Below, piece after piece: positions 1 through 59,862 of a stretch of DNA of 64,000 bases. A program made the position numbers and the translations under genes. The notes below the pieces were generated by a model that had not been told where the DNA came from, did not search any database, and saw only the letters and a program-made list of their open reading frames with translations. Source of the DNA: Omphalotus guepiniiformis (Eukaryota > Basidiomycota > Agaricomycetes > Agaricales > Omphalotaceae); NCBI GenBank assembly GCA_028554645.1, contig JAQOOI010000051.1, positions 62,001 to 126,000 on the forward strand, given 5' to 3'. Positions within the stretch are counted from its first letter, which is position 1, and every line of letters starts with the position of its first letter.

Positions 1-1220
1 TCAAAAGTAAGTAAGTATCAATTGAGCAGAGATTGGATTCTTTTTAGGTAGTTTTCTAGGTAATTTTCCAGTTAGATAGTCAAAATGTAGGAACTTTGGG
101 TATAGATTGGTATAAAAACAGAAATATATCGCTTTGTCCGCGTTCTAGGTGTGTTAGGGCGTACCCAGGGTATCTAAATAAAGGTCCAGATCCTGTAAAT
201 AGCAACCAGTATCCTGACAGGTGACATTCTCCTTAGTGCATTGCAAATCTGGTCCCCTATAAGTTTCTCCAAAATTGGCACATTCTCCTCTACTAGGGCA
301 GCATTAGGAGTTGTGTAGAAGCTCTAGAGTTTATCTAGACCATGCCTCATCGTTTCTATCAGCCACCGTAAGGTACAGTAACTGTTTATTTCAAGTTTTA
401 CCCCTATACATCTCTTTTTGGTCAGATTTGTACTCAGGTTATATTTCTTGTTTAGGATAGCTCTCAGCTTCTCCTAGGACAGTATTCTATCCCATAGTTT
501 CGTCTAAGACCTCCAATTAGAGTGCCTTTGTCTTTCCATCAAGTTCAGAGGGTTACTGAATTTCAGAGAGATACTCAGATCCAGAGAGATACTCATTTTC
601 AGTATCTAACTCCTTCCAGCATGAGTATTGAGTATCTAACTCATTTGTGCAGATGTAACTTTTGAATCTACTTCCATTATTACACAGATTGGCATTTCAT
701 CTCAGTGACATTATATCCACATAGTACTCAATGTACAATATTTCTCTGGTAATACAATCTTCAAGATTGCCCATATTCTCAGCATTCAATCTTATAGTGC
801 CAACTTAGTTAGCAAGACCAGCTGGAACTTTTGATCAGTCCAAAGGACTTAGATAGTTGTTCAATTGAAGTGAAAATCCATCAACCCCTTGGATTACAGT
901 CAACAACACTTGGTAGAGTCTCTAGTTATTAGAGGGTGGGTCTGACCAACTCAATCTGGTATGGAACATTGGAATTCCAACACATCTGGAGAGGCATAAC
1001 TAGTATCTCTTTGTATAACCCATTGGTCACAGTTGCTTAGTACCAGATTCAGTACTGTAGCAAACACTACACTTAGGTATTGTGAGTACAAGTATGTTTC
1101 ATGTCTTAACTAGCAGTCTGGGGTGACTCTAGTCCTTTATGTTCAGTTTCCAATGCTTGAACATTCCATATTTACTTCAATCTGATAGATTTCAGTACTG
1201 AAAGGCTTTTTGACGCAACA
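1..1220 (-). repeat. C-family LTR, reversed, partial (runs off the left edge)
   Basis: This is the reverse complement of the first two thirds of the LTRs that bound element C further right (matching the stretch from 58018). Its biological 5' end, TGTTGCGTC, lies at 1220 and the copy runs off the window at base 1. No polypurine tract lies to its right, so it is the 5' LTR of a minus-strand element outside the window, or a solo LTR. The flank at 1221-1224 is ccgg. It abuts the 5' leader of element A, so it most likely inserted just upstream of A's gag. Confidence 0.9.
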
Positions 1221-1243
1221 CCGGTGATGAAGATTTTAGGCGG

Positions 1244-2293
1244 ATGATGCAGGAGTTTCTTACCACTAGCATGGCTGGTTTTACTAACATGGCTAGGGCA
1301 TTTAATACACAGGCATCCGCGGCTCCGGAGAGCAAATTGCGCTTGAAGGAGCCAGACGTTTTTGACGGCTCGGATCCGCGGAAGCTCCGAAACTTCATCA
1401 TTTCCTTGGCCCTTCACCACTCAGATCGGCCTCAATATTTCTCTTCCGACGATCGTAAGATCACTTTCGCGCTCTCTTATTTGTCTGGATCAGCTCTGGA
1501 ATATTTCCAGCCAGAGCTACTGAACCCGGATCCGGACGATCCTCCGGCATGGATGGTCAATTATCAGGCCTTCATGCAAGAGCTGATGGAAAATTTCGGA
1601 GAGTACGATATGGAAGCGGAGGCTGAGCAACGCCTCAGTGGACTCAAAATGAGGGATACGGATCGAATCCGTAATTACAATGTAAAGTTTGGAGCCTACG
1701 CAGCAATGGTTCTTTGGGATCAAGCTGCTCTACGCTGGGCCTATTATCAAGGTTTGCCATCTCGTATTAAGGACGAACTAATGAGGATCGAGTATCCAAA
1801 AACCTATCAGGGGACCAGGAAAGAGGCCACCAAGATTGATGCTCGTTACTGGGCTCGCTCTGCTGAAAAGCAGCGAGAACAACGGACGTCTGGTGGAGGC
1901 TCCGGGAACTCTGGAAGTGGCTCCTCCACTTCACAATCTGGCTCGCAGAAGAAGAAGAGTGGCAATCCCAACAAGCCCTCCTCTTCCTCTAACAACCGCT
2001 CGTACTCCGGAAACTCCGGATCTGGTTCTGGTTCTGGCTCCGGTTCTAACTCCGGCAAGACAAATTCCTCTTCGACCACGCCAAAACCATACGCGGATAG
2101 GCTAGGAAAGGATGGGAAGTTGACGCAGGCGGAGAAGGACAGGCGCCGGAAGTTGAAGTTATGTTTCTTTTGTGGAGGTAATCATACTATGGATAATTGT
2201 GATAAGCGGAAGAAGTTGAACGAGGCTCGTGGACGAGCTTCGGAGGTAACTTCGGAGGACCCCAAACCGACTCCAAAGGAGTCGGAAAAATAG
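1244..2293 (+). CDS. gag: Element A Gag
   Basis: Capsid-nucleocapsid polyprotein of 349 residues, predicted to form the particle that packages element RNA. Residues about 35-200 resemble the retrotransposon Gag domain, with a conserved F-G-D-x-D-like stretch. A Ser/Gly/Asn-rich low-complexity linker covers about 215-280. A zinc knuckle follows near residues 307-319, but its spacing is CX2CX3HX4C, one residue shorter than the usual CX2CX4HX4C. The ATG at 1244 is the first in frame. The stop at 2291-2293 overlaps an open pol frame shifted by -1, so pol is probably made by frameshifting, although no canonical slippery heptamer is visible (the last codons read tcg gaa aaa tag). Confidence 0.85.
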   Translation: MMQEFLTTSMAGFTNMARAFNTQASAAPESKLRLKEPDVFDGSDPRKLRNFIISLALHHSDRPQYFSSDDRKITFALSYLSGSALEYFQPELLNPDPDDPPAWMVNYQAFMQELMENFGEYDMEAEAEQRLSGLKMRDTDRIRNYNVKFGAYAAMVLWDQAALRWAYYQGLPSRIKDELMRIEYPKTYQGTRKEATKIDARYWARSAEKQREQRTSGGGSGNSGSGSSTSQSGSQKKKSGNPNKPSSSSNNRSYSGNSGSGSGSGSGSNSGKTNSSSTTPKPYADRLGKDGKLTQAEKDRRRKLKLCFFCGGNHTMDNCDKRKKLNEARGRASEVTSEDPKPTPKESEK

Positions 2294-5200
2294 TCCGCAG
2301 CCCAGATGCCTCGACACGAAATTTGGGTTGCGTTGGCCACGATCGTGTCATCTCCGAGGTTACTCTCAACGCGTCCGCTCTTTTACACCACTCTGATTCA
2401 CTTGTATTACCACTTTGTATCGATCGGAGCTCCTCGGGCCTCAAGGGCCTTGTTAGGGAGCCCGAAAATCAGTCTACTTCATTTTTGAAATTTTCTACGT
2501 TACTTGATTCTGGTTCTTCTCATAGTTTCCTCGATTCAAAATTTGTTCATGATTATTTTCTTCCGGTAACTCCGGTTCCTCCGGTTCGACTACGCCTTCT
2601 TGATGGTTCAACCGCTTCTTCATTAATTGAAGAGCTTGTTACTTTACCTGTTCAATTTCCTTCCGGGGAGACCTTGTCTCTTGACTTTTTTGTCACTTCT
2701 TTGGATTCGTCTTGTAAAGCTGTTTTAGGATACAACTTTCTCACCCGCTACAACCCGTTGGTTGACTGGGTCACAGGAGTTATTTCATTCCGAAACACTG
2801 ATCAAACAGTTCCATCTCCCATTCCGCAGGCTGCATCTTCAACTCCGGTTGAGGTCGCGTCCATCGACGCATCTCCGACACCTACCTCTCGTCCTCGGAA
2901 GGCGAACTTTCCCTTTGAACCCATCTACTCATATCCAACCGTCACGCAAATGGGAGCAAGAATTTCGGACCCGTCGGATCCGGATATTGCTTTTATTGGT
3001 GCTGCAGCATTCATACGGGCTTGCAAGGAAGCTGGACAAGATCCCATTGTGATCTACGGACGTCCGGTTGCCTCCGTTACTGGTAACGCAGCATCTATCC
3101 ATTCACCTGTTGATCTCTCCGGAATACCGAAAGAGTATCACGATTTTGCTGACGTTTTTGATGAAGGTCTTTCAGAAGTCTTACCACCGTACCGCCCTTA
3201 CGACCTTAAAATCGACTTAGAGGACGGTGCTGAACCTCCCCTCGGACGTGTTTACCCACTGTCCGCGAAGGAACTAGAGGCCCTTAGGACTTTCTTGGAC
3301 AAGCATCTCGCCAACGGATTCATTACGACCTCTTCATCTAAACACGGAGCTCCGGTATTGTTTGTTCCTAAAAAGAATGGCTCACTCCGTCTCTGTGTAG
3401 ATTTTCGTGGCTTGAACAAGATTACCCGCAAGGACTGGTATCCTTTACCATTAATTTCCGACCTCCTTGACGCTCCTAAAAAGGCGAAAATCTATACCAA
3501 GCTTGATCTTCGACATGCTTACCACTTGGTCCGGATCGCCGAGGGAGACGAATGGAAAACTGCTTTCCGCACCAGATACGGCTCTTACGAATGGAAGGTC
3601 ATTCCCGAGGGACTAACCAATGCTCCGGCAGCTTTTCAACGGTTTGTAAATGAAATATTTGCTGACTTACTAGATGTCTACGTTATTGTCTACCTGGACG
3701 ACGTTCTAATCTATTCGGACAACCGAGCAGACCATCGAAAACATGTCCGCAAGGTTCTCCGACGCCTCCGGAAGCACGGTTTATTCTGCAATCCCAACAA
3801 ATGTGTCTTCGACTCCGAAACTGTTGAATACCTCGGTTACATTCTGTCACCGGACGGTCTTCGGATGTCCGAGGAGAAGGTTAAGGCCATCGTCGATTGG
3901 CCCCTTCCTCGACCGGGACGCATCAAAGACATTCAGTCCTTCCTTGGTTTCTGCAATTTCTACCGCCGTTTCATTTTCAATTATTCTGGTATCGTGGTTC
4001 CACTAACTCGTCTTACTCGTAAAGGTATTCCTTGGAAATGGTCCGAGGAGTGTCAACATTCTTTTGATTCACTTAAATCTGCTTTTCTTTCCGCTCCTGT
4101 TTTAACTCACTAGGAACCTGACCGACAGATAGTCCTGGAAACGGACGCCTTGGACTACGCTATAGCGGCAATTCTTTCACTTCGTATGGACGATGGAGAA
4201 ATCCATCCAGTCGCATTCCTGTCTCGGACCCTTCATGCCGCCGAGCTCAACTACGACACACACGACAAGGAGCTCCTCGCCATCTTTGAATCTTTCCAAC
4301 ACTGGCGGCATTACTTGGAGGGCTCCGCAACGCCGGTCGACGTGGTCACAGATCATAAGAACTTGGAGTACTTCAGTACTACCAAGGTCTTGACGCGCCG
4401 ACAGGTTAGATGGAGTGAATACTTGTCTCACTTTAATATGGTAATCCGGTTCCGACCGGGGCGCCTCGGAGCAAAACCTGACGCTCTGACTCGACGTTGG
4501 GACGTCTACCCAAAAGAGGGAGATAGTACTTACGCTACGGTCAATCCACAGAATCTGAAACCGATTTTCACCCAAGAACAACTATCGACTTCACTTCGAG
4601 CAACTTTCCTAGAAGGTCCGGTCCTTCGCGCTAGTATCATTATGGATCTCGACAAACTACACCAGTCGATCCGGGAATCTCTAGCTTCAGACCCGGAGTC
4701 CAAGGCAGGTATGTCACTTGCCAATGATGATGCTAACAAACGTTGGACTTTAGACAACTCCGGACAACTCCGGCTCGACAGTCGCATTTATGTTCCAGAC
4801 TCGGGTGACCTGCGGCTTCAGGTACTTCGATATTTCCATGACCATCCACTCTCAGGACACTTTGGGCAGAACCGGACACTAGAGGTCATCCGAAGACAGT
4901 ATACCTGGCCTCGGATCCGAGAGTTTGTCCGGTCCTACGTGCAATCCTGCACTGTTTGCGGTCGCAACAAGAGCCGTAGACACCGTCCTTATGGTCTTCT
5001 TCAACCTCTCCCAGTACCGGAACGTCCTTGGGATTCCATATCCATGGACTTCATTGAACAACTTCCGGATTCTCATGGCTTTACAGCCATTCTAGTCGTG
5101 GTAGACAGGGCATCTAAGCAAGCCATTTTTATTCCTACTTTTGACACCATAACCTCCGAACAGCTAGCCCAACTTTTCGTCCTTCACGTATTCTCCAAAC

Positions 5201-6129
5201 ACGGTGTTCCTCGGCATGTCACCTCCGACCGGGGCTCCGAGTTTGTCTCGCAGTTTTTTAGGGCTTTAGGTAAAGCGTTGCAGATGGAGCTTCATTACAC
5301 CTCCGGTTATCATCCGGAGGCTGATGGACAAACTGAACGAGCTAACCAAACTCTGGAACAGTACATCCGAATTTATTGTTCTTACCAACAGGATGACTGG
5401 GATGAACTCTTGGCCATTGCAGAGTTTGCTTACAATAATGCTCCGAACGGCTCCACTGGCATTTCGCCCTTCTTTGCCAACAAAGGTTATCACCCAAACC
5501 TTTCAATACATCCGGAATACGACCTCGCATCCGACCGGGCTCGACAGTTTGTGGTCAACCTTGACGAGCTCCACACTTTTCTACGCAATGAGATTACTCT
5601 TGCTCAGACTCGTTACAAGGAACAAGCTGACCGGCGGAGGTCCTCGGCTCCGGAATTTCCCATTGGCTCAGAAGTATATCTTAACGCTAAGCACATTCGT
5701 TCTACCCGTCCTACAGCTAAATTTTCCGAGAAATATCTAGGACCATTTAAAATTCTAGCTCGACCTAGTAACCTTGCCTATACACTACAGCTTCCAGACT
5801 ACCTCCGGTCCGTACATCCAGTATTCCATGTCTCCCAACTCGAACCAGCACCTCCCAACACCATTCCTAACCGCACGCAACCTCCGCCTCCTCCGGTTGA
5901 GGTCAACGGTGAAGTTGAATACGAGATCACTCAAATACTGGACTCCAAGTTGGATCGGAGACACCGGAAATGTCCGCTATTGTACTATGTCCAATGGCTT
6001 GGTTATGAAGGAACAGATGAAGAATTCTCGTGGGTCTTAGCTGATGAACTCACGGCTGAAGACTACATCCAGGATTTCCATGTCCGATATCCGGACAAAC
6101 CTGGACCTCTGTCGAAGTTGATAGTCTGA
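2206..6129 (+). pseudogene. pol: Element A Pol (protease-RT-RNase H-integrase-chromodomain) with one in-frame stop
   Basis: The frame is open from 2206; the first ATG is at 2323. Numbering from that ATG, the aspartic protease motif D-S-G is at residues 62-64 and the RT catalytic YLDD at 457-460 (3691-3702). RNase H begins after a TAG stop at 4111-4113, and the same frame resumes at once, so this is a single nonsense change. The second part has the RNase H motif around ETDALDYA, an HHCC zinc finger (about 4840-4970), a DD35E integrase core (TSDRGSE near 5224, DGQTE near 5323) and a chromodomain (about 5910-6100) with the aromatic Y-V-Q-W-L-G-Y core. The domain order is standard for Ty3/Gypsy. 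Readthrough of the TAG could yield full Pol, but simple inactivation is likelier. Confidence 0.9.
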
Positions 6130-6318
6130 TCGGACGTCCTCGGATGTTGACGGTCTTGGTGTTTCTTTCTTTTCTTATTTCTATCTTTCTCTTATTATCA
6201 CGCTTATCTCATCGTGAAAACAGACATTCATTTATATACAAACAAAACAAAAAAGCTATCAAGGAAAAACAGAAGTTATTACAACACCATTTCTTTCTAT
6301 CTACATTTCATTCTCTAT

Positions 6319-7803
6319 TTACGTCCTACTCGGACCTCCGCGCTCTTCTCGTCGTCTCTCGATTTCTCTTCGCCTCTCTGCGAACATCTCTCGCTCCTCC
6401 GCGGTATAGCGAGAATTCGTCTCTTCCTCTTGTCTGATCCTCTCTGCCGGGACTTCTCGGACGCCCGTGCAGATTTCTTCCACTTGTTCAAAAAATTCTG
6501 TTAACTGGGCGGCCTCTCCGCCCAGTACTCCCTGAACCATCCTACTGTTCATTACACTTGGGAGGGTCGGTTCTCGGACCTCCGGATGGGCATCCGATCG
6601 CTCTGCTTGGTCCCGCTCCCAAGCAAAGTGTAGCTCTCGGCCCATCTCGGCGAGCCGGATCGAGGCGTTGATTATCGCCTGGTTCATGATGTACGACCCC
6701 TGGATAGGAGTCGTTGCACCCATTGCCATTCCCAAGGCAAGGGCCCAGTCGCGGGTCCGCTCCGCCAAGAAAACACCCCAACTAGAGACCTCTTCTCTAG
6801 TTGAGTATACGGCGGCGTCAACGTCGTCGATCCGCCGGTTCACCAAATCTAACTCAGAGAGCTCCGCGGAGTCCCGAGGCTCTCCTGCTCGTCCCTCGAC
6901 CTTCTTCTCTAACCTAGCTAACCTGGATAGTATTTCTTCATTTTGCTGCATGAGCAGCTCGAGGGAAGCCGGAGAAAAGGAAGTGGTGGTGGTACTCGGA
7001 GCACCGACTCGCTCCGAAAACGAGCATTTTGATTTTTGTTTCCTGCATTCGTCGCAGGAGGTGGATTTGGTGTTCCGAGGGCGCCCGGAACAGTGGTATC
7101 GTCGTGCCCGGCACTGCAGGCAGGCGGGTCGGGAGCTAGGAGCTCCGGTTTCTTCTTCTTCGTCTTCTTCATCTGAAATGACAATAGACTAATATTTTGT
7201 TATAACTCAATTCCAATACTGGTATTCATTTACTTACCGCTGAAATCACGTTTTTTCTCTTTTTCTTAGGAGACCCACCGGCCTCCGGTTCCTCTTGTGC
7301 CTTTCGTTTCCCATCCCTCTTCTCTTTCCTCCTCCTCGCTTCCTCGGCCTTCTCAATAGCCCTCCTGGCTTTCTTCTCCTCCTCCGCCTCACTTTCCTCC
7401 TCGGCCCTCCGGTTCTCCTCATCCAGAATCCTTTGCGCCTCCTCAATCTCTCTCCTCCTCCGCTCTCGCTCCTCCGCCCTCCACTTTTCTTGCGCCTCCT
7501 GACGCCACTCCTGAATCCTCCGGACTTCCTCTGTCCACTCATTCTTTGCCTTATCGTACTCAGCCCACTCCCTATCTTCTTCCTGTTCAACTAAAAGAAC
7601 ATTGAGTATCAGACATCCGCAGACAGGATAAACTCACCCATGGCAATAGCCACTTTTATTCTATCAAACTCCTCCGCATTCTCCGGTGTCTTCCTTCGAG
7701 GCAAGGCTGGTTTGACCCTTGGCTCGGGTTCCGGACGTCCGAATGGCGCCGGAAGGGGGTATTCATTTTCAAAGGTTGGGGTGGTGGCTCGAGTCGCTGG
7801 CAT
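6319..7803 (-). CDS. Antisense gene Z of element A: Zn2Cys6-like coiled-coil protein, three exons
   Basis: The model is ATG at 7803, exon 1 to 7638, GTGAGT...TTTTAG intron, exon 2 7590-7238, GTAAGT...TATTAG intron, exon 3 7188-6319. All joins keep frame and give 462 residues. Residues about 56-155 are Glu/Arg-rich and probably a long coiled coil, ending in a KKKRK nuclear-localisation-like patch. An acidic stretch with a SIVISDEE start follows. Six cysteines at about 196-228 have spacing CX2CX6CX11CX2CX6C with basic residues between, matching the fungal Zn2Cys6 DNA-binding cluster. A second coiled coil starts near 250. It lies opposite the 3' untranslated part of the retroelement, converging on pol. 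A nuclear DNA-binding role is inferred from the cluster; no target is shown. Confidence 0.75.
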
Positions 7804-7948
7804 CTTTGTGTTGAGTTTACGGGGTTGAAGAGCGCGGGGTTGGGGGAACTTAGAGGTTTGCAGGCTAGGCTTTTATATCAATCCAGTGTTTGGCAGGATT
7901 TGGTCGATGTTGAAAATTCGGACACATCTCACTCCGAGGGGCAGGGTC

Positions 7949-7995
7949 GGACTTGGGACTTGGGACTTGGGACTTGGGACTTGGGACTTGGTACT
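7949..7995. repeat. Short tandem repeat, unit gacttgg (7 bp, about five copies)
   Basis: Perfect to near-perfect copies of a 7-bp unit lie between the start of antisense gene Z and the purine tract of element A. This is the upstream region of gene Z, so it may carry regulatory repeats or may simply be replication slippage. Confidence 0.85.
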
Positions 7996-8023
7996 TAGGG
8001 TTCTTGAGGGCAAGAACCCTAAG
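7994..8023. repeat. Perfect 13-bp inverted repeat with a 4-nt loop
   Basis: CTTAGGGTTCTTG (7994-8006) and its exact reverse complement (8011-8023) are separated by AGGG. It ends where the polypurine tract of element A begins. In RNA it would be a stable hairpin directly upstream of the plus-strand primer. Confidence 0.9.
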
Positions 8024-8033
8024 AGGGAGATAC
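8021..8033 (+). other. Element A polypurine tract
   Basis: A purine-rich run, aagagggagatac, stands immediately before the TGTTA start of the 3' LTR. This is the expected place for the plus-strand primer of reverse transcription. Confidence 0.75.
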
Positions 8034-8573
8034 TGTTACGGCTATGCGCCGGAACTCCGGGTCAGACCTCCGGTTTCTAGAACTTCTTTGATTTCTTCTT
8101 CCTGACATCTATTCAATCTTGCCATATGGTTCACTTTACAAATTCACGCTTTCCTATTCGCTTTTATTATTCTTTTCTACTCCGGACATCCGAACGTCGC
8201 CGACGTTCCATGTTCTTATTGTTCTTTAGTTTCATTCTTCTCACACTATTGTTTTATTACTCCGAGTATCTCCGGTAGAATACTCATATAAATACTTCAC
8301 GCTTATACTGTATATACTTTAGTTTTAAATCAATTTAGTCTCCGGACTACTATCTTGAATTTCTCGTCTGAACTCTCATCTCTCCTCGGACTTCCAATCC
8401 GGGTGCAGCACGGGGGGCAGTATCGAAATAATACTGCCTACCGGGTGAAGTCTTGTTGCCGGAGCAATTCGGGGCTCCTGGTTTATCTTGTCTTGTTCCT
8501 TTCGAACTCCTTCTCTCGGACCTCCTCGGAGGTCCTCACTTTCTTACCGTCTCTAGTCCGCACGGACTTAACA
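8034..8573 (+). repeat. Element A 3' LTR (540 bp)
   Basis: It begins TGTTA and ends TAACA, giving a perfect 5-bp terminal inverted repeat with TG...CA ends, and follows a polypurine tract. TCCGG strings are common within it. The flank after it (gatac) is inside a reversed C-family LTR. The matching left flank is outside the window, so the target duplication cannot be checked. Confidence 0.8.
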
Positions 8574-9282: not shown

Positions 9283-10128
9283 GCCAATCGGCTGCCCTCA
9301 ACGGAAATTCCAGAAAACAAAAAAGGAGACGCGTACTCTTCAGCAAAAACATCACCCACTACAGTACAAGAACAGAAACGCACTCACAAACTACTCTATC
9401 AAGAACGTGCTAAAGAAATCAATGCAAGAACACTCCTAAAGGAGAAAAAACGAATAACTGCCTCCCTCCTACGCAACTCGACCAAACACCTCTTCGGCAA
9501 AAACAAGTACATACCCCTTCCTCGCGTAATCAAGGATCCCAACTCTGACCAGCTGCTAGGAAACCCAGATGAGGTTAAAACCACCACTCAGAGATACTGG
9601 TCCAAATTATATGCACGTCAGCCACCCCCAAACATTCCCAAACCATGGCTCTCCACCCCCTCAGTCACAGCCATTCGGGACAGAGTGTCAAAAACACCAT
9701 TCCAATGGCCTAGAAAGGCAACCGTTGAGGAATTTCGAGCGCTGCTGCGAAAAGGTAACGCCCGTCCAGCACCGGGCCCCGATGAATGGGAAAAATGGAT
9801 AGTCAAAAATCTCTCTGATGACGGACTGCACTTAGTGATTCAACTTCACGACTACATCACCTCAACAGCTCGTTTCCTGGGACAAATCAAGGACATGTGG
9901 CTCACTATGTTCCACAAACGCGGACTCAGAACCGACCTCTCAAACTGGAGAGGAATTCTCCTCTCAAATTTTCTCGCCAACTCTCTGACTTCATGGCTAA
10001 ACTTCCAATTAGTACCTTACATGGCAGAACAGAAGATTCTCCCCGACACACAGGTGGCTACACAAAAAGACGTTCAAACTAGAGACCTTATGAGCTTCCT
10101 CGCAGGCATCAAATGCTGGGCTCACTGA
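9283..10128 (+). pseudogene. LINE reverse transcriptase, 5' fragment
   Basis: One frame is open from 9283 to the stop at 10126-10128. The protein shows the linker and the first RT blocks of non-LTR retrotransposons: a KHLFGKNKYIPLP-type region, then A-P-G-P-D-E-W and D-L-S-N-W-R-G-I (compare N-x-R-P-I in LINEs). It stops where element B begins at 10129; the continuation is at 41845. The stop comes from the 4-base target site, in which an original CGA appears as TGA. Bases 9216-9282 are probably upstream LINE sequence with a poly-A run. The endonuclease domain is not in the window. Confidence 0.75.
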
Positions 10129-11392
10129 TGTCGCGACTAAAAGCGGTCTAGGCTTAAAATCATGCAGATTAAGAAGGATTTTGGTTGTTCAAACATTGGA
10201 AACTGAACAATGAGAATTAGAGTTCACCCAGACTGCTAGTTGAAACATGAGAACACACTCAGTTACTCAAGCCTGAGTGTAGAATTAGCTACAGTACATG
10301 ATATGGTACTTAGCAACTGTGACCAATGGGATCATGGAGAGAGATACTAGTTTTGCCTCTCACTTTGTATTGGAGTACCAATGTTCCATGCTAAGTTGAG
10401 TTGGTCAGACCCACCCTCTAAAAACTAGAGACTCTCATGAGTGTTGTTTGATTGTAATCCAAGGGAATAATGGAAGTTACAATTCAATCTGAGAAACATC
10501 TAAGTCCACTGGACTATCTAACTCCAGCTGGTCTTGCTAACTCAGGTTGGCTGTAAAGACTGAATGCTGAGAGTGCAGACAATCTTGTATTGTTCTAACC
10601 AGAGAAATATGTTGTACATTTGGTACTATGCTTAGGATGGTGTTACAACTTGTGAACCACCTTTGTCTGTTGGCTGAAGAGCAAAAATCCTCTAAGTCAT
10701 TTCTGAAGAATGGAGTTAGATACTCAAGTTATCCTACCATGGAACTAGATGTTGATTCTGGAGTATCCCTCTGAAATGTAACATCTAACTGAGTGATACC
10801 CTGAACCCAGACACCCAAATAGGGAAGAATAAACGATTATTGGGACATAATACTGTCCATAGCTTGTTGCTAGAACCAGCTAAAAGGAGAAGTACCTCCT
10901 GGAGACAAATCAGATGCAAGATCTGGCCAGATAGACACATGTGCTACTGTACAGCTTGTGGATGATAGTAACAACGGAGTAGGGTCTAGATGACCTCTGA
11001 AACAAAGAAATAACCACTGGATATGCTAGGAACCTCACCAGCAGCCCCCAGTTAGGAAAATCAAAAGAGTTGCAAATTTCAAAATCATAAAAGATGTTGT
11101 CATATGGCACCATTCTGGACTGATATTGCGTGCTGTGCACCCTGGTTAGATACCCTGGACTTGATTGCCAAGCCACTATATGTACAAAGCGATTTTTATA
11201 ACAATTTTTATACCCAAGATACCTATACATGACAGTATCTAACTAAAAAAATACCTACAAAAATACCTAAAAAGACACCAATCCCTGCTCAATTAGTCTT
11301 TCTGTTATCTATTCTATTTACTCTGCTCAGATTCCCTTACATTTTCGAGATTTACTATATTTATTTTCTGACCTGTATATAAGAACTACCTA
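10129..11392 (+). repeat. Element B 5' LTR, 3' end deleted
   Basis: It starts TGTCGCGAC and matches the 3' LTR (from 40040) almost base for base as far as aagaactaccta at 11392, then switches directly into gag sequence. About 540 bp of LTR, the primer-binding site and the N-terminal two thirds of gag are missing relative to element C. A TATATAAG box at 11376-11383 is the likely promoter core. Confidence 0.9.
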
Positions 11393-11920
11393 GCTCCAAT
11401 GCAAAATTCTGGGTCTGGGATGAATTCTAATGGACACAATGGTGCTCCTAGGTCGTCTCAGGTCTCCTCTGTTCATAACAATTCTCACTCTGACTCTAAT
11501 TGCTACATGTGTGATGAACCTGGACATAGATCTGTGGACTGTTCCCATCAACTTAGATTTATCAGGTTGGGGTGGATGACCAAAAACAGTGCTGGTAAAT
11601 GGGCATTAAAAGATGGAGTGTATTGGCCAAGAGCTGATCCTTCAGATACTCGGTCTAAGAAAGATAAGATTGAGGAAATTGCCAGAAGACATGGTTGGGA
11701 CCAATCTCCCACTCATGTTGACCAGAATCTGTATGCTTTTGAGGAAGAGGATACTGCTGTAATGGCAGGCCCTTCTCAAAACAGTTCACTAGATGCTATA
11801 AACAGTCTTGTTGCGCAGTTCAGTCATGTTTGTACTACACTACAGAATTTAGCTCCAGTTGCTAACTCGGAGAAAAAGCAGATTCTGAAGAGAGATAGTA
11901 CCTCTGAGTCAAAAAACTAG
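11393..11920 (+). pseudogene. gag: Element B Gag C-terminal remnant
   Basis: Nucleocapsid end of Gag, closely similar to residues about 350-540 of the C-element Gag. The zinc knuckle CYMCDEPGHRSVDC has the canonical CX2CX4HX4C spacing. A Ser/Asn-rich region precedes it. The N-terminal capsid part is lost in the LTR-gag deletion. The frame ends at TAG 11918-11920, immediately after the heptamer AAAAAAC, and protease continues in the -1 frame. Confidence 0.85.
11911..11917 (+). promoter_or_regulatory. Gag-protease -1 frameshift site, A AAA AAC
   Basis: In the Gag frame the codons are tca aaa aac tag, so the heptamer has the X XXY YYZ phase and ends one base before the stop codon. A -1 slip leads straight into the frame that continues with protease and matches the fused C-element protein. 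A AAA AAC is an established slippery sequence in retroviral gag-pro overlaps. Confidence 0.8.
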
Positions 11921-45188: not shown

Positions 45189-45190
45189 TC

Positions 45191-48679: not shown

Positions 48680-51600
48680 TAAGAGATCAGGGAGAGGTAG
48701 CTGTTTGTATTGAAATGGATGAAGATGGCAATGCCACAATTGCTGGATATAAGCTGCCAGACAATGAATTGTTTTCAGAACCTGAAAAGGCTGAGGCATT
48801 TGTGTTTGCAGCTGAATCCATCATAAGAGAAAACGATATAGCGGCTGCAGATTCGGTTAGATCGTATTTAAATCGGTCTGTAGACTCAGAAAAGAAACAA
48901 GTGTTCTGTACCTGGCGAGAAAATTTAAATTTGAATTCAAAAGAGCACTTAGATACTCAGAATTCAGACTTAGATACTTGCACGGTACTTAATCACACTT
49001 CGGAACCCGCATCTGGAACTGAAAAGAGGATGAATAAGGGTAAAACGGTCAAAAGAGAACCGAAACCAGTCCAATCTTCAAGACCCAGATGGAGTAGAGA
49101 TAAGAATGGCAACAAAATGGCCAGATTGGTGACTGTTTTGGCTTCTAGAAAGTACAAACCAGTTGCTATTAAGGTCAAACCTGTTAAAGCTACCTTACCT
49201 GCGGAGTTCCGGATTGAAAGAAAAATAATTGGAGATCCGTTAAAAGATATGCCTGAGTTACCTACTCATCCTCCAGATTTCACTCCTGGTGAGAGGTACT
49301 CTCAAGAAAGAAAAGAAATTGTAGACAAGAATCATAATGAAGGTTTCTTATGGCCTGAAGAAATGAAACTTGTACACCATCTTATGAAAGTCCAAGAAAA
49401 AGCATTTGCATGGGAAGCATCTGAAGGAGGAACCTTTAATACAGAGTTCTTTCCTCCAGTAAAGTTTCCAGTGTTACCACACACTCCTTGGGTAGAAAGG
49501 AATATTCCTATACCTCCAGGGATCTATGATCAAGTGTGTAAAATGATTAAGGACAAAATAGATGCTGGTGTATATGAGCCGTCCAGTTCATCCTATAGAT
49601 CCAGATGGTTCTGTGTCTTAAAGAAAGATGGGAAAAGCTTAAGATTGATCCATAGTTTAGAACCACTCAATAAAGTGACTATTCAACATTCAGGAATTCC
49701 TCCTGCAACTGCAGATATAGCTAGAAGCTTCTCTGGAAGAGCATGTTTGGGTTTACTGGATATCTTTGTTGGGTATGATGAGAGGCTGGTTGATGAAAGT
49801 TCAAGAGATCTTACAACCTTCCAAACACCTTTTGGCCCACATAGATTAGTGAAGTTACCTATGGGTTGGACAAACTCTGTACCTATCTATCATGATGATG
49901 TTACATATATCTTCAGAGATGAAATTCCACATGTAACTAAACCTTACATTGATGATGTACCAGTAAAAGGGCCTGTCAGCAGATATGAAACTGCAGATGG
50001 AGGGTATGAAACTATCCCTGAAAATTCTGGCATCAGAAGATTTGTGTGGGAGCATCTGCAGAATATGAACAGAATTGTGCAAAGAATGAAACATGCTGGT
50101 GGTACCTTTGCAGGTACTAAAGCTTTTATCTGTGTAGCTGAAGGAGATGTTGTTGGACATCATGTCAGTTATGAAGGAGAAAAGCCAGTTGAAAGGTTAG
50201 CTGAAGTTGTTCTGACTTGTGATGCATCAAAATGGTCTGAGAAGAAAGATATCCGGTCATTTTTGGGCACTGCTGGTCAGATGAGGATGTTCATAAAGGA
50301 TTATGCCAAGAAAGCAAAACCTTTGACAATCTTAACTGGAGATGTGCCTTTTCAAATGGGTCCTGCAGAACTGGAAGCTGTAGAAATGATTAAAGATGGG
50401 ATTAGGAATGCTCCAGCACTCCGTCCTATTGACTATGATTTAAGTACTGGAATCACCCTTTCAGTAGATACTTCCTGGATGGCAGTAGGTTTCCAACTAT
50501 ATCAGAGAGACCCTGCAGATTCAAAGAAAAAGTTCTACAATTGGATGGGTTCTATTACCTTAAATGAGAGAGAAGCAAGGTTTTCTCAACCCAAGAGAGA
50601 ACTATATGGCTTGATGTTGGCCTTACAACAAACATACTACCAGACATATGGATGTAGGGATCTTACTGTGGAAACAGATGCAAGCTATATTAAAGGAATG
50701 CTTGACAAACCCAGTAGTGGTCCCAATGCAACTATAAACAGATGGATTGAAGAAATAAGGAAGTTCCACTTCACCTTGGTACACATCAAGGGCACTGAAC
50801 ATAAGGGACCAGATGGACTATCTAGACCACCTAGAGGAACCATACCAACTGAAAGAGCGGCATCTAGAGATCCGGATTCATTTGTTGATGAAGATGATGG
50901 TCTGCCGGTGAAATTCAGAATGGGAGATGGTGAATCTGAGGTACCCTTTGATTTTGAAGCCTTTAAAGATGAAATAGATACTCGAGGTGGTTACTTGCAG
51001 GAAGTTGCAAAGTCAATAGACGACTTTGAGGACGATTTGCAAGAAGCTCTTGAAGAAGAACGTCACTTGAATTCCATTAGAGAGCTGTTAGCAATTCAAC
51101 ATCCAGTATCTAACTCGATGTTGCAGTTTGCACAGACCTTGGTTATACCTGAAGGAGGTACTGAATGGAAACATGAACACCCGTATAGAGAGGATCACAG
51201 ATCTGCATCTACAAAGGAACTGGATGAACAACTAGACCTAATCAAAGATTGGTACCTGCAGGGCAATCAGCCTCTAGCTCACCTAGGTGAGACTGCTATG
51301 AAAAAGTTCATTTCCAGGGCTGTAAAGTTCTTTGTGGACAGAGATGGTAGACTCTATAGAAGGAATGATGATACAGGAGGCCAGCATAGACTGGTTGTGC
51401 CTAAAGAGAAAAGGATGTACATGATGCATGCTGCTCATGACCATCTGGGACATAAAGGAATGTTTGCAACAAAAGCTCTCATAGAGAAGCGTTTTTGGTG
51501 GCCAGATTTGAATGGAGATGTCAATTGGTTTGTCAAATCCTGCCAAATCTGCCAGAACCGAAAATTAGAATTGTTGAAGATTCCCCCTACTCTTACACAC

Positions 51601-52758
51601 ACTCCCTCCCTGTTTCAGAAGATTCATGTAGATGTGTTCAAAGTATCACCTCCAAGTAATGGTTGCAAGGATGTTGTACATGGCAGATGTGCACTCTCAT
51701 CCTGGTCTGAAGGAAGAGCCTTAAGATCTGACAATGCTAGATCATTGGGGGAATGGTTCTTTGATGATATTATATGCAGATGGGGATGTCCGGATGAAGT
51801 AGTAACTGATAATGCACCCCAGATGCGAGCTATGCTTAAATGGCTAGAAGATAAATATGGGATTAAAGGAATTACTATATCTCCTTACAATTCCCAAGCA
51901 AATGGCAAGATTGAGAGAGCCCACTTTGACATTAGAACTGCCTTGGCAAAAGCTACAGGTGGAGATCTAAAGAGATGGTGGTGGTTCCTCAAACATGTCT
52001 TCTGGGCAGATAGAATTACAGCTAGAAAAGGACTTGGTTGTTCACCATACTTCCTTGTTACTGGAGCTGAACCTATCCTACCCTTGGATATTGTTGAATC
52101 TACATGGTTAGTAAAACTTCCAGATAGAATCTTGACATATGAGGAACTTATTGGCTACAGAGCTCAAGCTCTAGCTAAGCATAGAACCCATGTGCAGGAG
52201 ATGATATCTAGAATTGATACAACCAAGAAAGAGACACTTAGACAATATGAAGAAGAATACAGAAATGTTATCAGAGACTTTGATTTCAAACCTGGTACAC
52301 TTATACAAGTCAGAAATACACAAGTTGAGAAGAACTTGGACAGAAAAATGTATCCTAGATACCTGGGACCCATGATTGTAATAAGGAGAACCAAAGGGGG
52401 ATCCTACATTGTGGCCCAGATGGATGGTACAGTACTCAGAGAAAAGGTTGCTGCCTTCAGAGTACTACCCCATGTAGCTAGATATGAACCAATTGAACTG
52501 CCTGAGAACATTCATGAACTTATAGACCTAACTAGTGAACAACTAGAAGAGATGGTCAATGATAACTTTGAGTTAGACCCTGAACTTGAGAGAGATTACA
52601 TCTTTGACAGTATTCCTCAACTGAGAATTCCTGCTGAAGATGAAGATCTTGATGAGTCCAGTGATGAAGAACTACAATCTGCAAACAATGCAGATGAAGA
52701 AGAACCAGATTGGGATGCTCCAGTCCAGACCAGGTCTCAATCTTCGCAAAATAAATGA
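48659..52758 (+). CDS. pol: Element C Pol (RT-RNase H-integrase)
   Basis: An intact frame; 1347 residues from the ATG at 48715, probably expressed by -1 frameshift from protease. RT has catalytic Y-I-D-D at residues 411-414. RNase H begins V-D-T-S-W with Asp 585. The integrase zinc finger ends C-Q-I-C at 943-946. The catalytic triad is Asp 973 (H-V-D-V-F), Asp 1032 (T-D-N-A) and Glu 1067 (G-K-I-E), leaving 34 residues between the last two rather than 35. The C-terminus is acidic, with no chromodomain. All catalytic residues are present, so the enzyme could be functional. Confidence 0.94.
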
Positions 52759-52960
52759 TAAACACACTATATTTGAACAAAGTACGAGATAGACACTGAA
52801 AAAGTGACTACCTAACTGCAGATGAAAGTAAAAAGTGGGTAACAGTAGTATGCACTACTAAGATAAACATAAAGGGTGTCTGAGGATGTCCTATACGATG
52901 TACCAATACCGTGTAAACTGCCCATAAATGATACTGAGATGTCCAGATGTAACATTAAAG

Positions 52961-54354
52961 TCAGAGAATGTCTGCAGATGGAAATGCATGGAAAGGAGCT
53001 GGATCATCAGCAGTACCTGGACCAGACTCCAAGGGACTCTGGTTGGCCCTGTAAGCCTTCTCCTTCTGTCTTCGGAGCAATTCCAGACGGGAAAACTCCT
53101 TGTAGGCAAATCTGTACTGAGAATGATGATACTGAATGGCATGTTGATGAACACTGAGTTCTGTCTTCAAGAAGTTGGAAATTGATTGAAGAACCTCAGG
53201 AGAGAAGTGGTCCAAGTCCATGAAAGGGAACAGAGCAGTGATACGAGTCACAATCTCTTCTCCACTCTCCCGGAGTTTGCGCTCATCTGCAGGATAATTG
53301 AGTTAGATACTCGAAAAAGCCGCAGATTGGGTGACTACTCACGGTCTGTCTCCTCTCTAAGGTTGACGATTGGGTTCTCAATCCGAGGCTTCTTCATGAC
53401 AATCACCTTGTGGGGCTCAGGAATAGGTTCATTCTACATGAACATTTATAGTCAGTACATAAAACTGCATGAATATCTCCAGATGGAACTAAAAACTTAC
53501 ATCTTTGGGTCCAACTGAGGTAGCCTGCAAAGTTACCATGGTGCATCAGTCTAGAGAAACGAACAAACAGTTCTGGACATAAATTGGCTCACCCTTGGAG
53601 AAGTGATTACTACTCTTTCCTTGGAAGACTTATGAACTGTGGTAGTAGTGGAAGAACCTTTGGTCTTGTCCTTGCTAGAGTCCTTGTTATCCTTATTGGG
53701 AGCATGAATCGACGCAGAGAGCCCAAGAGAAGGTCCATCTGCCATCTAAGAAAAGAAAGACCATGTTGAGATTTGAGTTAGATACTCAGGAGTTTGATAC
53801 TTACAGTAACGTCTCCGTCACCAGTAATGACCTCAATCTCTTCATCGTCATCATCGTCATCCTCAATGAGTTCAGGAGTTTTAGCTGGCTACACACCGAT
53901 AGGCAGTTAGATACTCGAAATGAGAGGGATGGTCAATAAAAACGTACTTTGCGCTTCTTAGATCCGCTGAGAGTCTCTCTGCGCTTTGCCAAGTCGTCCC
54001 GGAAAGCTTTAATGGCGGAGAAAGTGTCAGGTTCACCTACAGATGGGAACTTTTTGACTGCATCTGCGACCAGATTGACACCTTTGTCGAACAAAGTGAA
54101 CGCTTCCTCGGACTTAGCAACTGCATATGCAGGCAGAGACTTCTTCTGTAATAAGAAATCAAGTTAGATACTGGACCTGGAATCAAAGATTGAACATTTA
54201 CAAGATGACTAGCAAGGGCTGTAATAAGCATCCCAAGCAGTTCAGTATCCGCATCTTTGGCCTCCATGGCTCCAGTAGCTCGAGAAAGATATTGCTGCGT
54301 TGTGGCAACCCACTCAGGACGCTCAGGCCAAGTCTTGGGACCTTTAGGGGCCAT
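52961..54354 (-). CDS. Gene X of element C (antisense, about seven exons)
   Basis: Exon 1 is 54354-54202 (51 codons, M-A-P-K-G-P-K). Later exons carry a Lys-rich end K-K-R-K, an acidic stretch of six Asp, an M-A-D-G-P exon and a C-terminal exon from E-R-K-L-R to the stop at 52961. Joined, this gives about 340 residues. All introns seen are GT-AG. Exon edges coincide with those of the diverged X gene of element E. The family is not recognised; Lys-rich and acidic patches suggest a nuclear protein. It lies tail-to-tail with pol. The 13-bp motif GAGTATCTAACTC occurs in or next to several introns (53302, 53775, and variants at 53902 and 54163). Confidence 0.72.
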
Positions 54355-55194
54355 AACTGTAAAATATAGAGATAAAGAAATGATAAAAGTGGAAGGGATG
54401 TAGAACCAAGTAATAGATGGTGCTGAGTCGTTCTGAATCTGCGCTGCACCTTTTATATCTGGTCTACCCCGTCTAAATCTGCACGTTGGTCATTACTCCT
54501 ATGCTGTTCAAACAGGCACCATGAGGCCTAGCCAGCGTAGCAGATTGATCAACGGGGACGTTGAAGTTACTTTTACTTGGGGGGAGAGAGCACACAAAGT
54601 TGACAAGGCCAAAATTTTGAATTTTTGAAATTTCAAATATCTCAAATCTGGAGATCTAGACAGCTTTGACCGCAGAGGACTTAGCCGAATAGCATTGCCG
54701 AGTAACCGAGATCTCTCAACCTTGACAGAAAGGACTTATTAAATTCAATGTATCCTCAAAAAGAAACGATACTTATTGAAAATTGTGGGCTTAAGTCATT
54801 TAAAGAATTGTTTCCCTCTAGAATCGAGTTAGATACTCAATTTGAAGGAGACTCTCAATATGATTTCTTATGTTTCACACCAGATTCATGCCAAGAAAAA
54901 TGAAATATGTATTTTTGAGCATAGAAGCTCAGGACTATAATAAGAGATACTTCGACCTATACTACTATAAAGTAAGTACAGGGAGTATCTACAGAAAAAG
55001 CGATGTATAAAATTTTTATATATTTGGGCAACCTGGTGTGTTGAACACCAAGGTCACCCGCGACGAAATGCAAACGGATACGGCAGGTCCCAGCCAAGCG
55101 AAGAGAACGGCAGATCTGTGAGATTGGGACTGAGAGATGAAGAAAGTAAAGGGAAAAGGGGGTACGAACTATGTGCGCACCCGAGCCTTGAAAG
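54355..55194. other. Spacer between genes Y and X of element C, with internal purine block
   Basis: No gene is seen. At 54550-54590 aacggggacgttgaag is followed by ttacttttacttgggg and a purine run, closely resembling the sequence in front of the 3' LTR (57983-58017). A 13-bp motif is at 54826-54838 and a hairpin is at 55031-55054. Confidence 0.6.
55031..55054. other. Hairpin conserved with element B
   Basis: Arms ACCTGGTGT and ACACCAAGGT pair around the loop GTTGA with one bulge. Three base pairs differ from the copy at 35656-35679 while pairing is kept. It lies about 140 bases beyond the gene Y stop on the minus strand. Confidence 0.6.
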
Positions 55195-57712
55195 TCACTC
55201 TGAGAGGGGATCGTCCCTCCCAGCTAGTGGACTGCTTTCTGGCACTAAGACCCTGCCCGTCGTCTCCTCCTCCAGCTCGTCCTCCTTGTCCTCATCCTCT
55301 TCGACCGTGACTTGCGAGGCACCGACCGCCTGAGGCGATTCGTCGATGACTGTAGCAACGGGAGTGGAAGGAACATGGAATGGACCAGCTTGCTGCTCGA
55401 CTTCTGGATCCACCACGACGAAACGACCAGATTCGTTCCTAGCAATATAGCTTGCCCGAGACACCAGGTTGATGTCCCATCCAAGCGCGGTAGCCAGTAG
55501 TTTGAGCTGTTCGTCCGAATAGTCGAATGTCGGGTCGCCAGTCTGAACCTGATGTAAAACGAGACGAGGATCGCGACACGAAGCCTTGATATGATCTTGA
55601 CGCTGCAAGATCGTCCGGTGTACCCGTTCCATCGCTCGCATCTGCGCGGAGACGCTGTTCTGCATGTCCTCGTAGGTGTCGATGAGAATCTGCAACTGCT
55701 CAGCTTCCTGAGAGACAACTAAGAAACGAAGAACCTTTAATAAAAGATGTCTAAAGAAATGAAAGGAATACTTACCTGCACTGCCGCTGCGAGCCAACGT
55801 GTATGAAAGGCATTGCAACTGATTGCTGCCTTCCAAACCGTACGACCAGCTACAGGTGTGGTTGTCCTTTGCGCAGGTAGCGCAGCGCCACTCGAATGTC
55901 TTGCTGTTAAGTTGGGGACGGCATTCCCGCCCTTCTGTGTGTGTACCACCTACGCACGAAGCACAGATGGAGTCGCCAAAGAACTGAATAATGATAAAAG
56001 GGAATATTAGTGAACATCTATCTCGAGTCAGAAAGATACTCACCCTGTCGAATGTGCGGTTGACTGAAACGAGCTGTTGCAAAGTAGCAGGACGGCCATA
56101 AGGCCATCCAAAGACAACACGGCCTGCTGTTAAACAAACGCTAGAAAAATGAAAGTGAAGGATACTTACCAGGTACCTGCTCAAAGTCCTCCTTGGCACG
56201 ATTCTGCGGCGTACGGCCATCTGAGCGCTAAGGAAGACATTGTCAGTAATAAGAGCTGAAATAAAAGAAATGATGAGACTTACGTGGAGATTTGGGGCCT
56301 CATGACGGGTGCCCGGGGCTAGAGAAACAGAAGATGTTGCGAAATCGGCGCGAGAAGCCCACAAAGGAGCCTCAAAGTCGACGTTGAGATTGACGGGGGC
56401 CTTGGAACCCTCAGTCTTGACCAATTTCTCCTCTTCCTTCTTATCCTCTTCCTCGTCGCTGGAGGCTGGTACAGTGACTGGAGTCGCTTTCGAGCGAGTC
56501 TTTCAAGACGCTGGTTCATCGGCAGGCTCTTCTACCCGCATCTTCCGAATCTTTGGTCGTGGCTTGACCACCTGTTTACCCTTGCCCTGTGTAAGAAAAC
56601 ATGAGAAAAGAATAAATAAATCTATAAAGAAAAACATACCTTTGAAGCTGCAGCTGCAGGCTTCTTACCTTCAGAAACGCGAGACTTCTTGACCGGAGGC
56701 TCAGAGCTCTTGGACTCGAAGCCAGTGTCATCGTCGTCGTCGTCGGTCAGCTCAGTAGATTCGGCAGTGGCTTTGACGTCGGAAATCTTGCGTTTCATCT
56801 GAGAATGATAAGACTAAGAAATGACAATTTTGAACAAAAGAAAAGACTTACTGAACGACCCGGTAAGGGCGTTACACCAGTCTTGGCCTTTGCCTTTGGC
56901 TGAGGTTTTGGTTTTGAAACCGGAGCCGGCGTCTTCGAGGATCCAGCGCGAGCGGCCTTAGCAGAAGAAGCAAGAGTGGCAAGAGGCGGGAGTAAGATCT
57001 CATCGTCGTTGTTGTCCTCCTCGAGCTGCGGAGTTTGCTTAAGCTTAGGAAATGGAGGTAGTGGTTCCCATAAATTGCGAAGCTGTAAAAAGTTAGCAAA
57101 AAGAAATGACACGGATCTGAAAGATACTTACTGTATATTTGAGACAGAAAGAATCGAGCTTAGCGCGATTTAGGCCCCAAGGCGGCACAATAAATGAAGT
57201 TGGTTTTGCTTGGTGAAGCCATAGCGCGAGGTTGCATACGGAAAGAAAAGAACCTGTGAAATAGTCAGGGAGATGTGTATGTGCTCGCTGGCAGCGATTG
57301 AAAGTCAAAGCAACGCGAGTCTGTAAAGATGAGGTTAGCTATAACAAAGATGAAAAGAAATTGGTGCCTACCAAGGCAAGATTCAAGTCGTCAAAGGCGG
57401 AGGTAATGGTTTTCAACCTGAGACCCTTGCCGAACTCCTTAAACGATTGGTCGCGTAGACGTCGGTCCAAGTCACCTAGTCTTGAAACGATGGCGGAAAG
57501 AGATTTATAGTCTTCTTCATTCATGTCTGCGAGCTGTGAGGGAGAAAAGGAAAGAAAGAGGCCGTCAATTGAGAACGGTTCTCGAATATATATGTGACAC
57601 ACTGTGAAAAACAGCGCGTGAGAGAAGGGAATTAAAAAGGACTTACCGGTACCTCGGAAGGCTCCCTACTGAGAGTGATAGAGGAAGCCAATTGCCTTGA
57701 AAAGTCATCCAT
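55195..57712 (-). pseudogene. Gene Y of element C: six-cysteine nuclear-type protein, one in-frame stop
   Basis: Antisense gene of about ten exons. Exon 1 (57712-57647) reads M-D-D-F-S-R-Q-L. Later exons give a helical region, an exon with L-P-D-Y-F and W-L-H-Q, Pro/Lys-rich and acidic basic-flanked stretches, a block F-G-W-P-Y-G-R-P, the cysteine cluster CX2CX10CX12CX2CX6C (about 55845-55965), a coiled coil (about 55600-55715) and an acidic C-terminus ending P-L-S-E at 55195. Introns are GT-AG. A TGA at 56505-56503 lies where element B reads A-R-Q-T-R-S-K; unless it is spliced out, this copy is truncated. The cluster has Zn2Cys6-like order with wider loops. Confidence 0.72.
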
Positions 57713-58006
57713 CGGGGGACGGAGTGAGATGTGAAAAGAAAAACGAGAATCACTGTCTGTTTAAGTTGAAACTTCGACAGAAGCAGATTGCGGGTTTCGC
57801 CGAAGTCTGACATTGCCGTCACATGCCGATGTAAATGTATTGACTGGCGATCAATCGAGAAAAGTTTTGCCTAAAGGCAGTCCGTGAGACGTGATATTGT
57901 GATATTGAACAGTACGAAATGCGCTTCTATGACAAATCTGCTAGTAATAATTGTATCTAACTCGATTTTGGCCAATCTGGTACGATCGGGGACGATCTTA
58001 TTTTAC
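57713..58006. other. Gene Y upstream region of element C
   Basis: No gene is seen. It contains gatcggggacgatcttatt just before the purine tract, the second copy of the block found upstream of gene X. It is probably the promoter region of antisense gene Y. Confidence 0.5.
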
Positions 58007-58017
58007 TTTGGGGGAGA
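58007..58017 (+). other. Element C polypurine tract
   Basis: tttgggggaga lies directly before the TGTTGCGTC start of the 3' LTR. Confidence 0.85.
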
Positions 58018-59862
58018 TGTTGCGTCAAAAAGCCTTTCAGTGCTGAAATCCATCAGATTGAAGTAAATATGGAATGTTCAAGCATTGGAAACTGAACATA
58101 AAGGACTAGAGTCACCCCAGACTGCTAGTTAAGACATGAAACATACTTGTACTCACAATGCCTAAGTGTAGTGATTGCTACAGTACTGAATCTGGTACTA
58201 AGCAACTGTGACCAATGGGTTATACAAAGAGATACTAGTTATGCCTCTCCAGCTGTGTTGGAATTCCAATGTTCCATACCAGATTGAGTTGGTCAGACCC
58301 ACCCTCTAATAACTAGAGACTCTACCAAGTATTGTTGACTGTAATCCAAGGGGTTGATGGATTTTCACTTCAATTGAACAACTATCTAAGTCCTTTGGAC
58401 TGATCAAAAGTTCCAGCTGGTCTTGCTAACTAAGTTGGCACTATAAGATTGAATGCTGAGAATATGGGCAATCTTGAAGATTGTATTACCAGAGAAATAT
58501 TGTACATTGAGTACTATGTGAACATAATGTTACTAAGATGAAATGCCAATCTGTGTAATAATGGAAGTAGATTCAAAAAGTTACATCTGCACAAATGAGT
58601 TAGATACTCAATACTCATGCTGGAAGGAGTTAGATACTGAAAATGAGTATCTCTCTGGATCTGAGTATCTCTCTGAAATTCAGTAACCCTCTGAACTTGA
58701 TGAAAGACAAAGGCACTCTAATTGGAGGTCTTAGACGAAACTATGGGATAGAATACTGTCCTAGGAGAAGCTGAGAGCTATCCTAAACAAGAAATATAAC
58801 CTGAGTACAAATCTGACCAAAAAGAGATGTATAGGGGTAAAACTTGAAATAAACAGTTACTGTACCTTACTGTGGCTGATAGAAACGATGAAGCATGGTC
58901 TAGATAAGCTCTAGAGCTTCTACACAACTCCTAATGCTGCCCTAGTAGAGGAGAATGTGCCAATTTTGGAGAAACTTATAGGGGACCAGATTTGCAATGC
59001 ACTAAGGAGAATGTCACCTGTCAGGATACTGGTTGCTATTTACAGGATCTGGACCTTTATTTAGATACCCTGGGTACGCCCTAACACACCTAGAACGCGG
59101 ACAAAGCGATATATTTCTGTTTTTATACCAATCTATACCCAAAGTTCCTACATTTTGACTATCTAACTGGAAAATTACCTAGAAAACTACCTAAAAAGAA
59201 TCCAATCTCTGCTCAATTGATACTTACTTACTTTTGACTCATTTACTGTTCAGATTACTCTTTTAATTTCGAGATATATGTTTGATTTTATGATTTAGTA
59301 TATATAGCTTACAGAGTATCTATTTAGATTTTCTTAAGCAAGTACTGCCCAAAGCTCCAAGCCAAAGCAGGAAACCCTTCTTAGACGAAATATAGCCTGG
59401 CTCTTTAGAGTTCAGTTCGAGAAATATCCAGTTGTGAAAACTTCTGTAAAGTCCCTTGTGGCAGATAAATTGAAAGAGATACTGAATCTTTGCTGAAACT
59501 GCTGTTCTGTCTGTGCTGAATCTGCCTGCTGAAACTGTCTGTGCTGCATCTGAAACTGTTCCCTGCATTGTCTGACCATTGGATCGAGTTTAAACATCGA
59601 GATTGATTGTCCTGAATCCCTCCTGAACCCTGAAAACCACCCTTACCTTCTGTCTGAATCTTGTGTTTTGAGATACCCTCTGCCATTTTTCACCCAGATT
59701 GAGATAAAGACATCTGTAACCCTGCAGATTCGAAGTTCAATTGTTGCGTCTAACTGTGCGGAATCTCTGACAACGCCAGTCACACCTCACCCTACATCAT
59801 TTTGATTTGAGTTGGATTGTGCTCATTTGAGTATCTCTCTCGTTCATTTCATAGTCACTACA
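58018..59862 (+). repeat. Element C 3' LTR (1.85 kb)
   Basis: Closely similar to the 5' LTR from TGTTGCGTC to CACTACA, with scattered substitutions and single-base indels. Followed by ccgc inside a D-family LTR. Confidence 0.93.

Follow-up and report, generated by a model that had tools for sequence, protein, structure and literature searches.

To our knowledge, the best-documented case of a mobile element that counters silencing in a sequence-specific way is that of the VANDAL DNA transposons of plants. According to extracts of the source papers, VANC21 of Arabidopsis binds a 9-bp sequence, YAGTATTAY, that is enriched in its own VANDAL family (PMC5735166; PMC10398659), and removes silent marks along entire VANDAL21 copies; other motifs are used by related VANC proteins, and the sites lie in introns and terminal noncoding DNA (PMC5735166). 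Partial parallels appear in extracts of three further accounts. Antisense extra genes of plant LTR retrotransposons have no known function, a nuclear role being suspected, and the extract describes neither a family-specific word nor a zinc cluster (PMC7264820). The DNA uptake sequence dialects of the Neisseriaceae consist, in the extract, of a species-specific, genome-wide word read by the bacterium's own receptor; they serve bacterial DNA uptake and are not mobile elements (PMC3630211). Fungal DNA transposons carry TET/JBP dioxygenase genes thought to counter methylation-based silencing; here the product is a catalytic enzyme, the carriers are DNA transposons and the extract describes no family word (PMC12730594). 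Among the literature matches listed, no title describes retrotransposon family words of the kind reported below.

The Ty3/gypsy retrotransposons of Omphalotus guepiniiformis analysed here resemble the VANC/VANDAL system, as far as the extracts describe it, in that a short word is enriched within the family concerned but not among its relatives; this applies to families B/C, F and G, and more weakly to A and D/E. VANDAL elements are, by the same extracts, DNA transposons whose motifs are mainly noncoding tandem repeats in the same orientation, whereas the present elements are LTR retrotransposons with zinc-cluster-like proteins and with dispersed sites that extend into gag-pol, mostly without tandem arrays.

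Four of these families are represented in the window, the 64,000-nucleotide stretch of DNA that was analysed. Element B (43345..59862, forward strand) was delimited by self-comparison, with LTRs at 43345-45188 and 58018-59862. Its gag-pol reading frames (45359..52758, forward strand) match Pfam protease, RNase H and integrase H2C2 models, with no Pfam RVT_1 match at 0.001; the LTR pair, protease, RNase H and integrase zinc domain place B in the Ty3/gypsy group. Downstream of pol, B carries two antisense genes on the reverse strand: X (52961..54355), with four introns in our reading, and Y (approximately 55198..57710). Element C (10127..41303, forward strand; LTRs 10127-11392 and 40038-41303, by self-comparison) has the same arrangement, but both D/E and a D-type LTR piece interrupt it. 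D/E (15348..30079, forward strand), in which X and Y likewise follow pol, seems to be a single element whose centre is inverted, with X at 19747-21064 on the forward strand and pol at 26317-21222 on the reverse strand. The internal part of element A, a chromodomain gypsy element (1224..8572, forward strand), lies beside B-type LTR pieces; its gag-pol matches Pfam RVT_1 and rve, and it encodes a single antisense Zn_clus protein (6319..7188, reverse strand).

The first-pass annotation had reported an inverted repeat, GAGTTAGATACTC, scattered through B and C. All 12 of its exact copies are present, one of them at 53300 rather than 53302. Among nine copies said to carry one mismatch, five do so (31705, 31869, 39974, 51104 and 53904) and four carry two (47532, 48946, 54161 and 57951). 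The term inverted repeat is apt in part: the TAGAT core is not palindromic, the outer bases vary, and many copies end in ACTG; the dimeric binding factor that the annotation suggested is putative. A scan of both strands of the window allowing up to two mismatches located 49 sites, against a mean of 1.93 in 100 dinucleotide shuffles; the largest shuffle count was 8, and no shuffle reached 49. The proposed concentration in B and C was borne out, with 22 sites in B including its LTRs and 20 in C; B-type LTR pieces beside A hold five, D/E one, and one site (36089) falls in no assigned region. The internal part of A, from which the motif had been said to be absent, contains no site even with two mismatches allowed, the copies at 600-642 and 8604-8646 that border it being in B-type LTR pieces.

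Within C, two exact copies occupy a single X intron (33911..33952, forward strand). In the B LTR, a cluster at 58597..58669 (forward strand) comprises an exact copy, GAGTTAGATACTG 30 bp further on and then two half-like GATACTC copies. Genome-wide (42.5 Mb), exact GAGTTAGATACTC occurs 174 + 153 = 327 times, and its reversed control 0 + 0 times. Spans anchored on 61 B- or C-type X genes, which make up about 2.5% of the genome, contain 71 of the 100 exact copies listed. Of the remaining 29, a group of 20 shows GAGTTAGATACTG at a distance of exactly 30 bp, like the B LTR, three lie in C-type LTRs and six were assigned to neither class. The original scope of the observation is too narrow: a second word occurs in B, words of their own mark the other families, and gag-pol is also filled with them.

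A search of the genome with the last X exon returned 120 matches, comprising B-like, C-like and D/E elements and a new group, F, whose X is 33-36% identical. A pol search, in which 150 of 347 candidates were scored, added G at 70-71%. One copy of F (L039-L040) and one of G (L043-L044) were analysed, both with an antisense cysteine cluster; X itself is established for B, C, D/E and F. Enriched words were found in six Ty3/gypsy families, A, B, C, D/E, F and G: GAGTTAGATACTC is common to B and C, B also has AATCTG, and the others have CTAGAC/GCTCGA (F), CCGCG (G), CGGAG, with CCGGAG (A), and, weakly, ATAAAG with 44 copies (D/E). In a scan of words of 5-8 letters, with log10 P corrected within each length and not across lengths, the best words scored -36.3 for G (CCGCG), -13.1 for C (AGTATCTA), -11.6 for F (CTAGACCC), -8.3 for B (AGTATCTA), -7.5 for D/E (ATAAAG) and -3.1 for A (CGGAG). 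The earlier prediction that a diverged family would have a different motif is strongly borne out by F and G, but weakly by D/E.

For comparison we used 12 LTR families without a detected cysteine cluster (L048-L059; nine gypsy and three copia), a further one (37% tier, C59:449495) being left out; the right end of L050, which holds a nested B LTR, was trimmed before the word scan. None had a comparable word of 5-8 letters (best log10 P -1.8), nor did three arbitrary 8-kb stretches (best -0.1). Equal density of the motif in unrelated sequence, which the first-pass annotation had named as a refutation, was not seen in the other sequence examined. The comparison favours the word-bearing families because they are longer (12-15 kb, A 7.3 kb) than the comparison families (5.5-8.5 kb). 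Four-letter words do not separate the two kinds of loci (CTTC scored -8.2 in L051 and CGCG -4.3 in L052) and were set aside as unspecific, CTTC being enriched in both. A dyad scan found CGG-N3-TCC 35 times in A against 8.8 expected. The D/E dyads (ACG/CGA) were dropped because they resemble Asp-codon repeats, and EM motif refinement drifted and was not used.

The strand distribution of the words bears on what might read them. It is balanced for AATCTG in B (25:25 among 50 sites outside the 3' LTR), for CCGCG in G (67:70) and for CTAGAC, GCTAGA and GCTCGA in F (13:17, 22:15 and 20:17), and these words therefore fit recognition of double-stranded DNA. It is biased for AGTATC in B (11:25) and C (11:21), AGTTAGATACT in B (6:1), ATAAAG in D/E (40:4) and CCGGAG in A (5:31). 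The biased words might represent sites with a set orientation, like those of VANC arrays, or signals acting in RNA, such as intron branch sites or splicing or packaging signals. That GAGTATCTAACTC includes a branch-site-like CTAAC and is present in four B X introns, as we read them, and that copies of the motif lie in X introns of B and C (five in those of B), would suit such signals. We nevertheless consider an RNA role improbable, given the balanced words of B, F and G, the many copies in LTRs and gag-pol, and the lack of any relation between the family words and splice signals.

Compared with synonymous-codon shuffles, which keep codon usage, and for words picked on whole elements, each family's word was in excess in its own gag-pol: B AATCTG 25 versus 8.2, in frames that also hold 12 AGTATC sites; C AGTATC 10 versus 4.4; F CTAGAC 19 versus 5.0; G CCGCG 61 versus 13.0; A CGGA 120 versus 72.8; and D/E ATAAAG 23 versus 10.3. 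Apart from the sharing between B and C and some mild excesses, words of other families were near expectation in each family, the largest cross-family excesses being ATCTG in C (z 3.6) and noncoding CCGGA in D/E (z 3.5). In a hold-out analysis, six words were chosen from each family's noncoding part and tested in its own coding part, success being a count that no more than 10 of 300 shuffles attained. Replication was 6/6 for C, 5/6 for F, 4/6 for B and 3/6 for G; D/E gave 1/6, a rare word with two copies only, and A 0/6, its top noncoding words deriving from a local tandem array. A blind scan of coding sequence alone gave log10 P values of -19.2 for G, -5.7 for B, -4.9 for A and -3.3 for F, with -1.8 for D/E (best AGAAAG, not ATAAAG) and a non-significant -0.2 for C; the best in the 12 comparison families was -1.6. 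The blind scan thus singles out G, B, A and F, whereas C is distinguished only through words defined outside the coding region, and D/E hardly at all.

This excess bears directly on transcriptional autoregulation, under which the words would serve LTRs and antisense promoters as operators or enhancers, with copies elsewhere as spillover, and the encoded protein would set expression or copy number through them. The AATCTG density of 6.0/kb in the B LTRs, the same 6.0/kb in the X-Y spacer and the motif cluster in the B LTR are consistent with it. The large gag-pol excess over synonymous shuffles lies far from promoters, and we regard autoregulation as an unlikely account of the whole pattern.

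Comparison of B with C indicates how coding sites arise. The two gag-pol regions are 86.7% identical, and 46% of six-letter words are kept, yet C retains only 2 of the 18 AATCTG sites present in B gag-pol; in pol, none of eight is kept in either C or F. The retention pattern, with direction checked against F and D/E, leads us to conclude that sites were gained or lost by point substitution. B/C differences inside the pol AATCTG sites fall at codon positions 1-2 in 7 of 13 cases, a small sample, against 159 of 453 overall. AGTATC behaves otherwise, 6 of 9 B sites in gag-pol being common to C. Words of F and G are rarely kept in other families, where background retention is equally low.

An artefact of segmental or tandem duplication, codon usage or host mutation bias is very improbable as the source of the words. 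B and C do share some sites by descent, as do paired LTRs, and the enrichment of four-letter words, CTTC among them, extends to both kinds of loci. However, flanks of GAGTTAGATACTC sites differ except at homologous positions, so the copies are not segmental duplicates, the possibility that the first-pass annotation had named as fatal to its reading. Coding sites are in part lineage-specific, and with the unrelated flanks the B-specific ones rule out segmental and tandem duplication alike. Codon usage is ruled out by the persistence of the word excess over synonymous shuffles. Host-wide mutation bias, which is unlikely because it would affect all families, is ruled out by the lack of a comparable word in the 12 comparison LTR families and the three arbitrary 8-kb stretches.

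In each of the six word-bearing families, the antisense strand encodes a protein whose cysteines are grouped in a Zn2Cys6-like cluster. The spacing is near-canonical in A (CX2CX6CX11CX2CX6C) and G (CX2CX6CX8CX2CX7C). The first loop is longer in F (CX2CX8CX11CX2CX6C), in the Y of D/E (CX2CX8CX8CX2CX6C; 26735..26830, reverse strand) and in the Y of B (CX2CX10CX12CX2CX6C; 55852-55965). The C copy in the window (Y cluster exon 38231..38446, reverse strand) has B-type spacing and five of the six cysteines, the fifth being replaced by Phe. The likeness to the fungal Gal4-type regulators (PF00172) lies in this spacing, and only A passes the Pfam Zn_clus cut-off (22.9 bits, cut-off 21). Those regulators are host proteins. 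In B, C, D/E and F the first loop is altered and Pfam gives no significant match, for B Y included; a PF00172 search of the five other families matched one member, at E 1.1. The best hit of a PDB sequence search with the A protein was LEU3 (E 0.08), and structure predictions were of low quality, with mean pLDDT values of 56 and 48. CGG-containing words are the typical target of the Zn2Cys6 fold, and the words of A and G contain CGG.

In open reading frames of at least 60 aa from the 12 comparison families, no such cluster was found by pattern, a search that a split or distant exon would escape; a repeat pair brackets the ORF in 8 of the 12. The contrast of six families with none of 12 overstates independence because five of the six form one lineage, and the six represent about two independent lineages. 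Two paralogues of the A protein (L060), with no gag-pol in the 7 kb examined, have no word around them (best -0.7), so the words go with elements and not with the gene alone.

A host DNA-binding protein, rather than one of the element's own, might instead read the words, and L048, in which an antisense ORF is present but a word is not, would accord with this. We think it quite unlikely, as families in one nucleus differ in their word and several host proteins would be needed, each matched to one family. Recognition of each family's word by a DNA-binding protein encoded on its own antisense strand is, from the sequence patterns above, the explanation that we consider somewhat probable. From the words, their specificity and the antisense cysteine-cluster genes, we infer that Y or X binds the family word. 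Since X (78% identity) and the Y cluster (66%) both diverge between B and C, either could be the reader; the Zn2Cys6-like Y is the most likely candidate, perhaps acting with X.

The predicted reader would recognise and coat the elements of its own family, and selection would accumulate copies of the word along the whole element, gag-pol included. The likeliest benefit would be sequence-specific counter-silencing of element chromatin, with control of the element's own promoters as part of the same activity. Counter-silencing, suggested by analogy with VANDAL elements, is the weakest step of this explanation, inferred with less strength than binding, and we put it forward tentatively. The genome contains seven Tet_JBP matches, one of them over the cut-off, together with two partial matches to DNA_methylase, which leaves room for methylation-based silencing in this host.

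Taken as a whole, the families may possess a self-address code, in which private family words, extending into coding sequence, are read by the elements' own antisense zinc-cluster proteins, each splitting of a family altering word and reader in step; we hold this broader proposal to be plausible, with slightly less assurance than own-protein recognition alone. If it is true, retrotransposons would have evolved VANDAL-like logic independently, in another class of element and probably another kingdom, and would have accepted substitutions in gag-pol to place their sites. The recognition system would act at the level of entire retroelement copies and would give a role to antisense retrotransposon genes that otherwise lack one, and the matched set of proteins and words would constitute a natural series for the evolution of DNA-binding specificity.

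D/E (Ty3/gypsy, window 15348-30079) looks like a single element whose pol-X centre has been turned round with respect to gag, Y and the LTRs, X and Y being the antisense genes that follow pol. At the right end of element A, a B-type LTR piece adjoins, the junction lying exactly at a GATACTC copy (window 8573 and 569).

The antisense zinc-cluster protein of A has tandem, diverged paralogues (35-52%) elsewhere in the genome, on contigs C15 (178458-193824), C1 (2138-5612), C4 (30037-38881), C13 (4424-7897) and C78 (96-695). Gag-pol is absent from the 7 kb read around two of the C15 copies (L060, C15:177000-184000), and some paralogues lie no more than 8 kb from a contig end; they possibly constitute a subtelomeric gene family. 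The L048 family is sister to A (RT identity 58%); its 249-aa antisense ORF (L048:5455-6201) yielded no zinc-cluster pattern, and no enriched word was found in L048.

The diverged B-like element of L042 (contig C71) retains the motif in its X region and, downstream of Y, carries a ~2-kb array of ~199 copies of the 10-bp unit GCATCAGCTG (L042:4899-6907). The words of B, C and the related family F, respectively CAGATT (the complement strand of AATCTG), TAGATA and CTAGAC, have an AGA core in common, from which we suggest that a single putative recognition site may have drifted stepwise.
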